DNA from: an uncultured Ectothiorhodospiraceae bacterium
GTDB lineage: Bacteria > Pseudomonadota > Gammaproteobacteria > CAMYNG01
Length of the DNA stretch: 64,000 bases
Direction of reading: 5' to 3'
Assembly: GCA_947259765.1 (NCBI GenBank)
Contig: CAMYNG010000009.1
Coordinates: forward strand, 1-64,000
Part shown: piece by piece, positions 54,130 through 57,616 of the stretch
Numbering within the stretch: the first letter of the stretch is position 1
How the letters are laid out: each line of letters opens with the position of its first letter
Notes under the pieces: generated by a model
Told to the model about the DNA's origin: nothing
The model's database searches: none
Seen by the model: the letters and a program-made list of their open reading frames with translations, nothing else
Position numbers and translations under genes: made by a program

Positions 54130-54633
54130 GTGCAGGTAAATAACCAATTGATAATACGGTATTTTTTTCTGTTTTTCGGTATCCTGCCGGCGATTGCCCA
54201 GAGTCAGGATTTCGACACCACCGTCGCGATGCAGGACAAAGGCGCGTCAACCTTTTACGTAAGTGGCGAAATTGACGGCTTTGGACCAACAGACCTTATG
54301 GTCGACACCGGCTCCGGCTACATGACCATCAACGAGGAAACACTTGAGATCCTTTTAAAAGAGAATCGCGCCCAGTATGTAAAAGAACTCTCTGGCACGC
54401 TGGCGAACGGCGACAAATTGATTGTTCCGGTATATCTCCTCTCCGGAATCAACATCGGCGGACAATGCATACTAAACAATGTGGAGGCTGCCGTATTTCC
54501 CGGCAAGACGCGATCGATTCTTGGATTAAGTGCGCTCAGCAAGGCGGCGCCGTTCATTTTCTCTATGGACCCGCCACAACTTGTGCTCAGCAACTGCGCG
54601 ACCGAGAACCCACGCATAGAAACCGCAGGTTAA
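54130..54633 (+). CDS. Retropepsin-like aspartic protease, exported
   Basis: It has 167 residues, starting with GTG at 54130, seven bases after GGAGG. The N-terminal hydrophobic stretch (IIRYFFLFFGILPAIAQS) looks like a signal peptide. The single catalytic motif is LMVDTGSGY (D59-T60-G61), followed by the second conserved region SILGLSAL. A single DTG copy per chain means a dimer is needed, as in retropepsins. Two Cys (in GGQCILNN and LSNCATE) may form a disulfide. Substrate unknown. Confidence 0.8.
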   Translation: MQVNNQLIIRYFFLFFGILPAIAQSQDFDTTVAMQDKGASTFYVSGEIDGFGPTDLMVDTGSGYMTINEETLEILLKENRAQYVKELSGTLANGDKLIVPVYLLSGINIGGQCILNNVEAAVFPGKTRSILGLSALSKAAPFIFSMDPPQLVLSNCATENPRIETAG

Positions 54634-54674
54634 ACAATAGAATAGAATTCAATCGGTGACGTGAAAACAGGGTT

Positions 54675-54699
54675 GGGCGGATCCTAAGCGGATCCGCCC
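54675..54699. terminator. Perfect hairpin between convergent genes (bidirectional terminator)
   Basis: GGGCGGATCC (54675-54684) and GGATCCGCCC (54690-54699) form a perfect 10-bp stem with loop TAAGC. It lies 41 bases after the protease stop (plus) and 9 bases after the EF-hand gene stop (minus). No T-run is seen on either strand, so termination efficiency is uncertain. Confidence 0.65.
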
Positions 54700-54708
54700 G
54701 CTCCAGGA

Positions 54709-54987
54709 TTACTTCACCATTGTTTTTGGGTCAGCCGAGGGCGTTGCCGTTGATGATTCAAACGCGCTGAACTCAGAGGCATCGAGATTGCCGTCCTTGT
54801 TCGAATCGAGTTTGTTGTAATTTGCTGAAATCCCTTTATTAGCTTCAGCTTCCTGCATATTAATGACACCATCGGCGTCCGTATCCAGTGCCTTAAAACC
54901 CGCTGACGCACCACCTGCGTGTACAGGCAATACCGCGACTGCGGCAGAAAAAGCGATACCCAAAGCCATCAAACGTTTTACTGACAT
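54709..54987 (-). CDS. Exported EF-hand calcium-binding protein
   Basis: From the ATG at 54987 (GGAGG eight bases upstream) it has 92 residues with a signal peptide (LMALGIAFSAAVAVLPVHA). Two EF-hand loops are seen: DTDADGVINMQE (35-46) and DSNKDGNLDASE (61-72), each with D at positions 1, 5 (or N) and an acidic residue at 12. Located in the periplasm or outside. Probably calcium-binding; role unknown. It converges with the retropepsin-like gene. Confidence 0.85.
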   Translation of the reverse strand: MSVKRLMALGIAFSAAVAVLPVHAGGASAGFKALDTDADGVINMQEAEANKGISANYNKLDSNKDGNLDASEFSAFESSTATPSADPKTMVK

Positions 54988-55406
54988 TTGCATTTCCTCC
55001 ATGTTCCATGCAAAAGCGCACATTGCGCAATCCAATTTCAGTCTGGAAACCATTTCAGCAGACTGTCTCACGTCAACCGATCCCGACCGATTAACCCGAT
55101 CAGTTCCGGCAATACGGCACGGACGATACTATGAATATTGTTTCAAAAACATGACACAGTTCACGATAAGTCCGTACTTATTCACCATCTACCCGCCCAT
55201 GTAACTTACTGATTTAGGGCATAATTTCCCAAAATCGTAAGCCACCGCCAACTTAGAATGCGCCGTAGCGTGATGGTGTCCGAAAGCTTACCTCAAAAGA
55301 CTGCAAAACACTTCGATATTTTTTTTTGACCAATAATGAGAGGCCTTACCATCAATACTCATAGACGCTACCTGAACTGGACAACGATGCGTTTTTGGAC
55401 ACCTGT
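54988..55406. other. Gene-free region between EF-hand and GFA genes
   Basis: In these 419 bases I see no gene on either strand. Features are AT-rich stretches and a T9 run near 55319-55327. It presumably holds the EF-hand gene promoter, but no clear -10/-35 pair was picked out. Confidence 0.5.
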
Positions 55407-55766
55407 TTAGAGCAAATGCCGACCGTCAAATACGTCAAATTCCAACGCGTAGGAGTCCACACCTTCAACGCACCCCAGATTGGCGCGGTAGTGTCCCGGT
55501 TTCCGTGAAGTTTCGTGAAACGTATAGATTCCGCATCGCTTACAGAAGTAATGCCGTGCCGTCTTGTTTCCAAATTGATACAGACCCAATTGTTCGTCTT
55601 TTGCATCAAACAGGAATTTATCCTGAGGGATAGGCTCCGCACTCATCAATGCACCTTTACGCACACAAATCGAGCAGTTACAACGAAGCCCTTTGGTTAT
55701 AGCATCACTCTCGAATGAAAACCGCACTGCGCCACAGTGACAACTTCCCGCAAATTTTTGGCTCAT
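55407..55766 (-). CDS. GFA/CENP-V-family zinc protein
   Basis: It has 119 residues from ATG 55766; the frame extends to 55790. The GFA fold is marked by Cys pairs: SCHCG (C9, C11), CNCSIC (C29, C31, C34) and CKRCG (C75, C78). The family was named for a glutathione-dependent formaldehyde-activating enzyme, but function is unproven for most members, including this one. It is 27 bases after the next upstream protease gene, possibly cotranscribed. Confidence 0.88.
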   Translation of the reverse strand: MSQKFAGSCHCGAVRFSFESDAITKGLRCNCSICVRKGALMSAEPIPQDKFLFDAKDEQLGLYQFGNKTARHYFCKRCGIYTFHETSRKPGHYRANLGCVEGVDSYALEFDVFDGRHLL

Positions 55767-55793
55767 CCGTAATTCACCCCCATATCCCAATTG

Positions 55794-56453
55794 TTACCAT
55801 TTCTTGCGCAGCAACATCATTTCTCCATCGCGCTCCATTCGGGTTCGATTCAGAAATGATTGCCCCAGTAAAACTTCACTGGACCGATTGCCTTCCAGTA
55901 CGGCGCCGCGTACATTCAATAGTTCGATATCACCCACCTTCACCTTGTCCAGATTAACCACGTAAATCTTCACCGTGCCGTTGGCGGTATTCGCATAGCC
56001 AGGCTCACCACGGTAGCGAAAATCGATACCGAGTCTGCGTGCCTGATTTGCCCCCATTGAAACCCACGTCGCACCAGTATCCACGAGAAAGTGCACCGGC
56101 TGACCATTTATAGAGCCTGCGGTGAGGTACATCCCACTGGAGGGCCAAATGCGAACCTCGTCCACATCGCCGGTAGTAGCTTCTTCTTGACTCGGGGTAT
56201 TTGAAATACTGACGTGGCTACCCAGTGGAAATGTTTCGCGTTTACCCTTGATTTCGATTACAGCCTCGTTACTGTTGGCCGAAATCAAACGAATGCCGTC
56301 GTCGGTGGTTTCACCTGCGCGTAACTTTACCTGCTTACCATCAATACGTAGTATTGCCATATCCTTGAATAGGCCCAGCACAAGGATATCCGCCGCCTGC
56401 GACGGCGGAAGCGAAGCCAAAAGCATAAACAGCCCGAGTATAAAAATACGCAT
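55794..56453 (-). CDS. Retropepsin-like aspartic protease (TIGR02281 type)
   Basis: It has 219 residues from the ATG at 56453, giving the signal peptide RIFILGLFMLLASLPPSQA; a TTG at 56513 is less likely. The N-domain (DMAILRIDGKQVKLRAGE) precedes the protease domain with FLVDTGATWVSM (D125-T126-G127) and the C-terminal VLLGQSFLNR. It belongs to the clan AA single-domain exported aspartic proteases of Proteobacteria. It is separate from the GTG-start protease at 54130, though both are exported and close together. Confidence 0.85.
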   Translation of the reverse strand: MRIFILGLFMLLASLPPSQAADILVLGLFKDMAILRIDGKQVKLRAGETTDDGIRLISANSNEAVIEIKGKRETFPLGSHVSISNTPSQEEATTGDVDEVRIWPSSGMYLTAGSINGQPVHFLVDTGATWVSMGANQARRLGIDFRYRGEPGYANTANGTVKIYVVNLDKVKVGDIELLNVRGAVLEGNRSSEVLLGQSFLNRTRMERDGEMMLLRKKW

Positions 56454-56633: not shown

Positions 56634-57098
56634 CTAATGCTTGTGCTGTGTCGCACCGCTCTCCTTCTTTTCTTTGTCTTTTGTTTTACCCGCGGGTTCG
56701 CTTTGTACGATTCCAACCGCTTTTCCTCTACCTGACAGGTGGTCGAGCTTCACTTTCATGCGTCGAGCACTCCAGCCGTGCACTTTGTCGTGAGCTTCGA
56801 TGAAAATAACTTTGGTTTCCGGAGAAATTTCCACATTATGCAGGCTACGCGTAAATGGTTGCTCCTTGTCGTGCGGATGATGCAAGACGCGTTTGCCGAG
56901 TTCTTTTCCTTGCCCGTCGACAATACGCCAGGCGTCCGCATAGTGATTCCATCCTGCATCGGCATGACGTAATGTTACGCTTGCGTTCCAATCAACTGAA
57001 CCGCGGGAAACGGTTGCGTCAACAACTTCAACTTCGCCTGAAAACACCGTAAAACTGATGAGCAGGAAGCCTAAAAAAATACAAAACCTTGGAATCAT
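56634..57098 (-). CDS. Conserved hypothetical periplasmic protein
   Basis: It has 154 residues from the ATG at 57098 with a CAGGGG site upstream. The signal peptide is IPRFCIFLGFLLISFTVFSG. The core VDATVSRGSVDWNASVTLRH and HYADAWRIVDGQG looks like a small beta-sandwich; the histidines and the aromatic patch suggest a conserved periplasmic fold. The C-terminus is charged (Lys/Glu/His rich). The family is not identified. Start follows pgpA stop by 2 bases on the same strand. Confidence 0.75.
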   Translation of the reverse strand: MIPRFCIFLGFLLISFTVFSGEVEVVDATVSRGSVDWNASVTLRHADAGWNHYADAWRIVDGQGKELGKRVLHHPHDKEQPFTRSLHNVEISPETKVIFIEAHDKVHGWSARRMKVKLDHLSGRGKAVGIVQSEPAGKTKDKEKKESGATQHKH

Positions 57099-57100
57099 GA

Positions 57101-57616
57101 TTACCCCTGAAAATAAGTTGACCATACATATACACTCAATTGGAGACCAAGCAACGCGTAGATACCGGCTAACACGTCATCCAGCATAATCCCCAATCCA
57201 CCCTTGACTTGCCGATCAATCAATCCGATGGGCCAGGGTTTGACAACGTCAAAAAGGCGAAACCAGAAAAAACCGGCAACAATCCACACCCAACCAACGG
57301 GCGCGGCAATCATGGTTATCAAATATCCAACAACCTCGTCCCAAACGATGGCACGGTGATCCTCAACACCCAGCGCTTTGGTAGTGTAGTCACAAATGAT
57401 CACGCCGATGACGAACGTCACCACCACAATCGCGATATAAAACCAAATTGATAGCGACTGCATCATCAGGTAGATGGGGATCGCCGGTAAGGTACCGACG
57501 GTCCCGGGAACGTACGGGGATAAGCCGGTACCGAAACCGAGACTGAACAAATGCGCCGGATTGCGTAGCAGGCGTACACTCGGAATCGGATTATCAGTAT
57601 GAAAGGTTACGCTCAT
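57101..57616 (-). CDS. pgpA: Phosphatidylglycerophosphatase A
   Basis: PgpA dephosphorylates phosphatidylglycerol phosphate in phospholipid synthesis. It has 171 residues with several membrane segments. The family motifs are GTGLSPYVPGTVGTLPAIP, VWDEVVGYL, and GGLGIMLDDVLAGIYA. It overlaps the thiL stop by 4 bases (ATGA). Confidence 0.95.
   Translation of the reverse strand: MSVTFHTDNPIPSVRLLRNPAHLFSLGFGTGLSPYVPGTVGTLPAIPIYLMMQSLSIWFYIAIVVVTFVIGVIICDYTTKALGVEDHRAIVWDEVVGYLITMIAAPVGWVWIVAGFFWFRLFDVVKPWPIGLIDRQVKGGLGIMLDDVLAGIYALLGLQLSVYVWSTYFQG

Follow-up and report, generated by a model that had tools for sequence, protein, structure and literature searches.

Beside a retropepsin-like aspartic protease, here called P1, some Gammaproteobacteria in the broad sense (Aromatoleum and Thauera included) encode exported-looking proteins of unrelated folds that carry the same six-residue tag near their C-terminus. 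The pairing suggests an undescribed envelope protease system that recognises its proteins by this tag. The case is built on features obtained by computation, namely the linkage, the presence of the tag on unrelated folds, its dependence on P1 when members of one protein family are compared, and the catalytic motif, the fold and a conserved arginine of P1. From these sequence features, a functional link between the tag and P1 is very probable.

P1 was encountered in the window, by which we mean the whole analysed stretch of 64,000 nucleotides from an uncultured Ectothiorhodospiraceae bacterium. A first-pass annotation of this DNA had described two different exported DTG proteases (DTGSG in P1, DTGAT in P2) with a two-EF-hand secreted protein and a GFA protein between them, and had considered a calcium-linked proteolysis module possible. 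The gene content holds. All four genes lie within 2.4 kb (Table 1), and signal-like N-terminal starts are predicted, by reading of the sequence, on P1, P2 and the EF-hand protein. The small protein has two EF-hand stretches (PF13202, 33.8 against a cut-off of 25.9), and the proteases do differ, scoring 99.5 (P2) and 34.9 (P1) on TIGR02281.

Table 1. Features of the P1 locus in the window.
Feature	Position	Strand	Basis
P1, exported-looking retropepsin-fold aspartic protease	54130-54633	+	PF13975, AlphaFold2 model, PDB fold matches
10-bp perfect inverted repeat GGGCGGATCC, 5-base loop	54675-54699	.	between convergent stops of P1 and EF-hand gene
Tagged partner, 92-aa EF-hand protein, convergent with P1	54709-54987	-	PF13202, ribosome-binding site, EF-hand homologs beside P1 elsewhere
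EFSAFE tag codons GAGTTCAGCGCGTTTGAA	54757-54774	-	frame read from sequence
GFA-family protein, apparent bystander	55407-55790	-	PF04828 51.4 against cut-off 24.3
P2, TIGR02281 protease, apparent bystander	55794-56453	-	PF13975 96.8; TIGR02281 99.5 against cut-off 57.95

P1 starts at a GTG with GGAGGA upstream and has an N-terminal hydrophobic segment. It contains the motif VDTGSGY with the catalytic D59-T60-G61, the family-specific R128, and the cysteines C113 and C156. The EF-hand reading frame spans 54709-55071 on the minus strand, and its likely start is an ATG at 54987 preceded by GGAGG. The resulting 92-aa protein has a signal-peptide-like start and carries the tag within DASEFSAFESS, at a distance of 15 residues from the C-terminus. 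The first Glu of this tag doubles as the final ligand of the second EF-hand loop. In a DNA pattern search, this was the only exact match to the tag pattern in the window's genome, and a second EFxxFE-type match lies in mid-protein. The inverted repeat is possibly a shared terminator of P1 and the EF-hand gene; it is absent from the terminator-like sites of the terminator scan. P2 likely begins at the ATG at 56453 and has the motif VDTGATW. It is adjoined by an exported-looking 163-aa ORF without a Pfam match (window 56634-57125). The window's genome also holds a third PF13975-type protease gene (G000:C15:43913-44179).

In relatives, only part of the cluster is conserved. An EF-hand homolog is found beside P1 in L035/L044 (one genome), L037, L038, L045, L047 and L063, and the pair of P1 and EF-hand gene is, as far as these sequences go, a conserved linkage. 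P2 and GFA are not linked to it. In the loci of other genomes compared, with flanks of 1.5-6 kb, P1 and P2 orthologs never occur together, and GFA was not seen at P1 or P2 loci other than the window's own. Among 56 genomes, that of the window and 55 relatives, 31 have a P2-type match and 9 a P1 match. P1 is missing, and a P2 ortholog present, in G003, G004 and G005, three members of the window's family; the sole match of the P1 search in G005 is its own P2. A further genome, G002, has P1 and the EF-hand gene, and for P2 just a weak TIGR02281-type match. P2 relatives adjoin pgpA, thiL or the 163-aa ORF (L006, L007, L013, L015, L018 and L019), and a homolog of this ORF is present beside P2 in L006, L007 and L013; it appears the likelier partner of P2. 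P2 and GFA look like bystanders outside the P1 system. Calcium is not a common theme either, because the EF-hand partner is swapped elsewhere for PRC-barrel, OmpA-like, PG_binding_1 or small proteins, which lack calcium-binding motifs. A single calcium-linked module of both proteases and GFA, which the crowding of the four genes in the window might suggest, is scarcely tenable against these comparisons.

P1 matches PF13975 (37.0, cut-off 28.2) and PF13650 (35.2, cut-off 24.3). On TIGR02281 it reaches just 34.9 bits, below the cut-off of 57.95, and the P1 of L044 reaches 30.9; P1 and P2 therefore represent different families. No match to PF05618, which we take to be the family of the RimB/RloA proteases, was present among Pfam families with E up to 1, and no Pfam or NCBIfam model for the pairing of P1 and tag was found. 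By these profile searches, P1 belongs to an unnamed protease family. The AlphaFold2 model of the single chain (pLDDT 89.6) was matched by Foldseek to the Rickettsia protease APRc (5c9f, E 3.7e-7). The VIA-align score was Z 11.6 for APRc (5c9b, 122 residues, rmsd 4.2), with DDI1 proteins at about 10 to 10.6 and retroviral proteases at 9 to 10. The predicted structure of P1 is that of a single-lobe retropepsin.

P1 was found in 51 of the 369 genomes of the class, with 53 matches. Together with 19 other named loci, these matches make up the 72 P1 loci analysed here, which include close species and perhaps some duplicates; G002 is counted through the named record L044, apparently the same genome. 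In a 299-genome sample of the phylum, 11 genomes match P1. Eight of them lie outside the class, and their matches, all under 70 bits and mostly in longer frames, were left out of the P1 counts. No plasmid relatives of P1 were found in the search. DTG is kept in 71 of the 72 homologs, the flap Gly in all 72, and the two Cys in 72 and 71. The exception for DTG is L145 (G088), a P1 frame without the N-terminal, DTG-bearing part, either a broken gene or an assembly error, whose EF-hand neighbour nevertheless keeps the tag. Arg128, two residues before the second hydrophobic-hydrophobic-Gly motif, is present in 69 of 72 homologs and replaced by H in two and N in one. At this place 16 of 27 TIGR02281-type proteins are acidic and APRc has Asp.

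The tag was defined as [DE][FLMIV][SA]x[FLMI][ED] in the last 70 residues, a pattern fixed after the first examples had been seen. It was sought in ORFs that combine basic residues at the start with a hydrophobic stretch and a cleavage site of small residues; such ORFs are called exported-like under this hand-made rule, which is not a trained predictor. Within 3 kb of P1, 154 ORFs are exported-like and 54 of them have the tag. These represent 50 of the 72 loci, and at the other 22 no neighbour is tagged. The match at L165 (a thioredoxin-like protein by reading), counted among the 50, is probably due to chance. No tag was found in any of 64 exported-like ORFs at 62 control loci. Of these ORFs, 45 come from 30 P2/TIGR02281 loci and 19 from 32 loci included through chance pattern matches (three of the latter loci, L109, L110 and L160, come from genomes with P1). 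The difference between P1 and control ORFs gives a Fisher value of 5e-10. Tagged ORFs cluster close to P1: they make up 52 of 109 up to a distance of 1 kb, 2 of 45 between 1 and 3 kb, and 1 of 28 beyond; the last is a second EFSAFE EF-hand protein in Marinobacterium. Relative to P1, the partner gene is convergent in 32 cases and divergent in 7; in others it shares the strand of P1, lying downstream in 10 and upstream in 4.

When L165 is excluded, 52 tags lie within 2 kb, and 27 of them read exactly EFSAFE. Position 1 is E or D, position 2 is F in 45, position 3 is S or A, position 4 is A in 37 and otherwise R, K, Q or I, position 5 is F in 46, and position 6 is E in 51; these frequencies are partly imposed, since the pattern was set post hoc. 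The tails that follow are hydrophilic and span 2 to 62 residues (median 19). None of the 34 tails of at least 15 residues has a 15-residue stretch of mean hydropathy above 1.0, and the remaining 18 of 52 are shorter. The order of the letters was also examined. The tag pattern occurs in 8 neighbour clusters at 49 loci (the chance match of L165 included), and of the 720 ways to order its letters, only the mirror of the pattern does equally well; a near-identical ordering follows with 7 clusters and 46 loci, and the next has 6 and 11. Exact k-mers are little informative, because single linkage at E 1e-3 merges the EF-hand and PRC partners, which stay separate at 1e-4. Beside divergent P1 homologs (L143, L144 and L136), small exported proteins end in DVAALE, DIAALE or more distant variants, and the variants of the tag may follow the subfamilies of P1.

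The partners are not related to each other. At 20 named P1 loci, the species differ in the neighbour, which is either an EF-hand protein or a PRC-barrel protein. The folds of these two are unrelated; what they have in common is SEFSAFE followed by a short tail. By Pfam, partners fall into the EF-hand, PRC, OmpA and PG_binding_1 classes, and several have no match above the cut-off; no model of the tag was present among the NCBIfam and Pfam matches of the proteins scanned. When 14 PRC partners picked for having EFSAFE are aligned, columns are on average 39% identical; six invariant columns in a row occur nowhere but at the tag, and beyond it the tails do not align. A neighbour cluster built blind to the tag (c3) has an EFSAFE or EFAAFE protein at each of its 12 loci. 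The predicted structure of the PRC partner places the tag within a low-confidence tail. In Aromatoleum toluclasticum (L062:6557-6997), the PRC domain is gone and the signal peptide, tag and tail are kept. A quick tree was made from the 72 P1 sequences (24 of 69 inner branches weak). Along it, the labelled rows switch partner fold 11 times or more and the tag stays; the tag thus outlasts the domain that carries it. In the EF-hand partners, conservation of the tag has a second possible cause, because a conserved region of the fold extends into the tag.

Tag and P1 also go together across genomes. A DNA pattern for EFSAFE and close variants matched 60 places in 47 of the 369 genomes. Under a fixed rule (exact EFSAFE in an exported-like protein, no further than 70 residues from the end), 16 of 51 genomes with P1 contribute 25 proteins, and 1 of 318 genomes without it contributes one. 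That lone genome, G211, has a P1 fragment at a contig end beside the tagged gene. The nearest exception among genomes without P1 is G206, in which a protein that we take to be DUF4340-like has EFSAFE 30 residues from the end and is excluded by the rule. Other in-frame matches in such genomes lie in the middle of proteins, in proteins that read as cytoplasmic, or in short and improbable frames. Genomes with P1 hold up to three exact-EFSAFE proteins, including ones not linked to P1. These are EF-hand proteins in G002, G049 and G019, PRC proteins in G311, and small proteins without a recognised domain in G047, G187 and G189. The rule misses one protein of G311, and also G336, whose OmpA-like EFSAFE protein (by reading) fails as exported-like. 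Small tagged proteins of G187 and G047 (L156, L157 and L158) share the ending EWxPxxW or EWIxxxW after the tag, which would be a second C-terminal motif.

The same dependence is seen within single partner families. In the EF-hand family, searched with a profile of cores cut before the tag, two open-ended proteins from genomes without P1 were dropped from the 135 found (148 matches listed) and the rest were compared. The tag is present in 34 of 58 proteins from genomes with P1, leaving 24 untagged, versus 5 of 75 from genomes without it (25 of 33 versus 5 of 51 by genome; Fisher 6e-11, uncorrected for kinship). The five P1-less genomes with a tagged EF-hand protein are G211, G247, G068, G206 and G309. 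G247 is 84% complete and has a genus mate with P1; in G068, G206 and G309, the P1 search gave weak retropepsin-like matches or none. In the PRC family, searched with PRC cores as profile (38 matches listed, 38 proteins), 6 of 16 proteins from genomes with P1 are tagged versus 0 of 22 from those without (Fisher 0.003, uncorrected for kinship). The tag could also be the ordinary E-F ending of an EF-hand loop, joined to P1 by chance linkage or shared ancestry, and in EF-hand partners its first two residues are indeed normal EF-hand positions. However, it is also carried by PRC, OmpA-like, PG_binding_1 and small proteins, and it is rare in the same EF-hand family, and absent from the PRC proteins, where P1 is missing. 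We rejected this very improbable reading because partners other than EF-hand proteins carry the tag.

We propose that P1 would act as an exported aspartic protease on envelope proteins marked near the C-terminus by E-F-[SA]-x-F-E. Retropepsins form dimers with two-fold symmetry, and these bind about eight residues in extended form. A P1 homodimer may bind the extended hexamer across its symmetry axis, with equivalent pockets of the two subunits taking the two Phe of the tag; a near-palindrome is what equivalent pockets of identical subunits favour. The loop that bears the place of Arg128 lines the substrate pockets in retropepsins, so that one Arg of each subunit could meet one of the two outer Glu. 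P1 might then cut at or beside the central [SA]-x bond, either to trim off the short tail or to initiate turnover. Since aspartic proteases tend to favour bulky hydrophobic residues around the cleavage site, a cut beside Phe fits better than one at the central bond. In EF-hand partners, in which the first Glu of the tag belongs to the second calcium loop, bound calcium could hide the tag. In this model, we infer export, dimerisation, the geometry of recognition, cleavage and its site, calcium gating and the biological purpose from the computed features. That a P1 homodimer recognises the tag, and probably cleaves it, is probable, with some reserve. Against this model stand the 22 of 72 loci with untagged neighbours, the 24 of 58 untagged EF-hand proteins, and the exceptions G068, G206 and G309.

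The tag might instead dock in the P1 cleft without being a processing site, and the tagged proteins would then be inhibitors, adaptors or sensors by which the protease is held or controlled. In L063 and L178, the tag lies just 2 or 3 residues from the C-terminus, so cleavage there would remove hardly anything. Seven of the 72 P1 proteins (L048, L049, L051, L055, L056, L058 and L062, from Aromatoleum, Denitromonas and Thauera) themselves end in DLAAFD, DLAALD or DLAALE, as a pseudosubstrate might; such an end is a possible pseudosubstrate or self-processing site. However, DTG is retained in all but one of the P1 proteins, and up to three exact-EFSAFE proteins in one genome suit substrates better than inhibitors. 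We regard docking as unlikely. Another factor, such as a chaperone or a component of export or anchoring, might also read the tag, with P1 as a co-inherited member or client. The tag-like end of the seven P1 homologs fits this reading too, and linkage alone cannot separate an enzyme from a client. However, when neighbour clusters were compared with P1 as query and frames overlapping P1 or the partner set aside, no other cluster recurs beside P1 as widely as the tagged partners, and a separate reader seems quite improbable. Beyond cleavage of the tag by P1, we tentatively read the whole as an unnamed envelope system of regulated proteolysis in Gammaproteobacteria in the broad sense. A dimeric retropepsin would read, and thereby process, a near-palindromic hexamer that matches the enzyme's two-fold symmetry on an exchangeable set of clients (EF-hand, PRC-barrel, OmpA-like and others), with exposure of the tag gated in some of them by a ligand such as calcium.

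Systems with a comparable logic are known. In GlyGly-CTERM/rhombosortase (PMC3237569) and MYXO-CTERM/myxosortase (PMC11980579), diverse proteins are reported to share a C-terminal signal and to be served by a dedicated intramembrane protease. As in these systems, different folds share a short tag that co-occurs with one protease, one enzyme serving many clients; exact EFSAFE is found in 16 of 51 genomes with P1 versus 1 of 318 without. In contrast, P1 is predicted to be a soluble retropepsin and its tag is quasi-palindromic, and the tag is not followed by a hydrophobic segment in any of the 34 tails with at least 15 residues.

Other retropepsin-like proteases of bacteria resemble P1 only in part. 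APRc/RC1339 (5c9b, 5c9d and 5c9f), reported as a retropepsin-like protease of Rickettsia (PMC4140852), is a bacterial DTG protease and the closest solved fold. However, its sequence link to P1 is weak (profile E 0.0012), and it has Asp in place of Arg128. RloA of Pseudomonas aeruginosa, as reported in PMC12239564, is a signal-peptide-bearing, RimB-related retropepsin-like protease of the rlo operon that cuts runs of at least 8 Glu. RloA is, like P1, a gammaproteobacterial protease of this type with a signal peptide, and its substrate is defined and acidic. Unlike P1, it is kin to RimB and acts on poly-Glu, and the words EF-hand and PRC-barrel are absent from that paper. The TIGR02281 family of P2 shares with P1 the DTG, the retropepsin-like character and a signal-peptide-like start, but it has other neighbours and is mostly acidic where P1 has Arg128. 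In the open-licence literature, we found no paper with EFSAFE as a motif or with the pairing of P1 and tag.

Substrates are known for few bacterial retropepsin-like proteases. A motif on unrelated neighbours names candidate substrates and the recognition site directly. If the proposed system is real, it would extend the few pairings between a protein tag and a protease by a new class of enzyme, with a symmetric tag for a symmetric enzyme. Many small envelope proteins now labelled 'hypothetical' would gain a function, and the tag might serve as an orthogonal cleavage tag.
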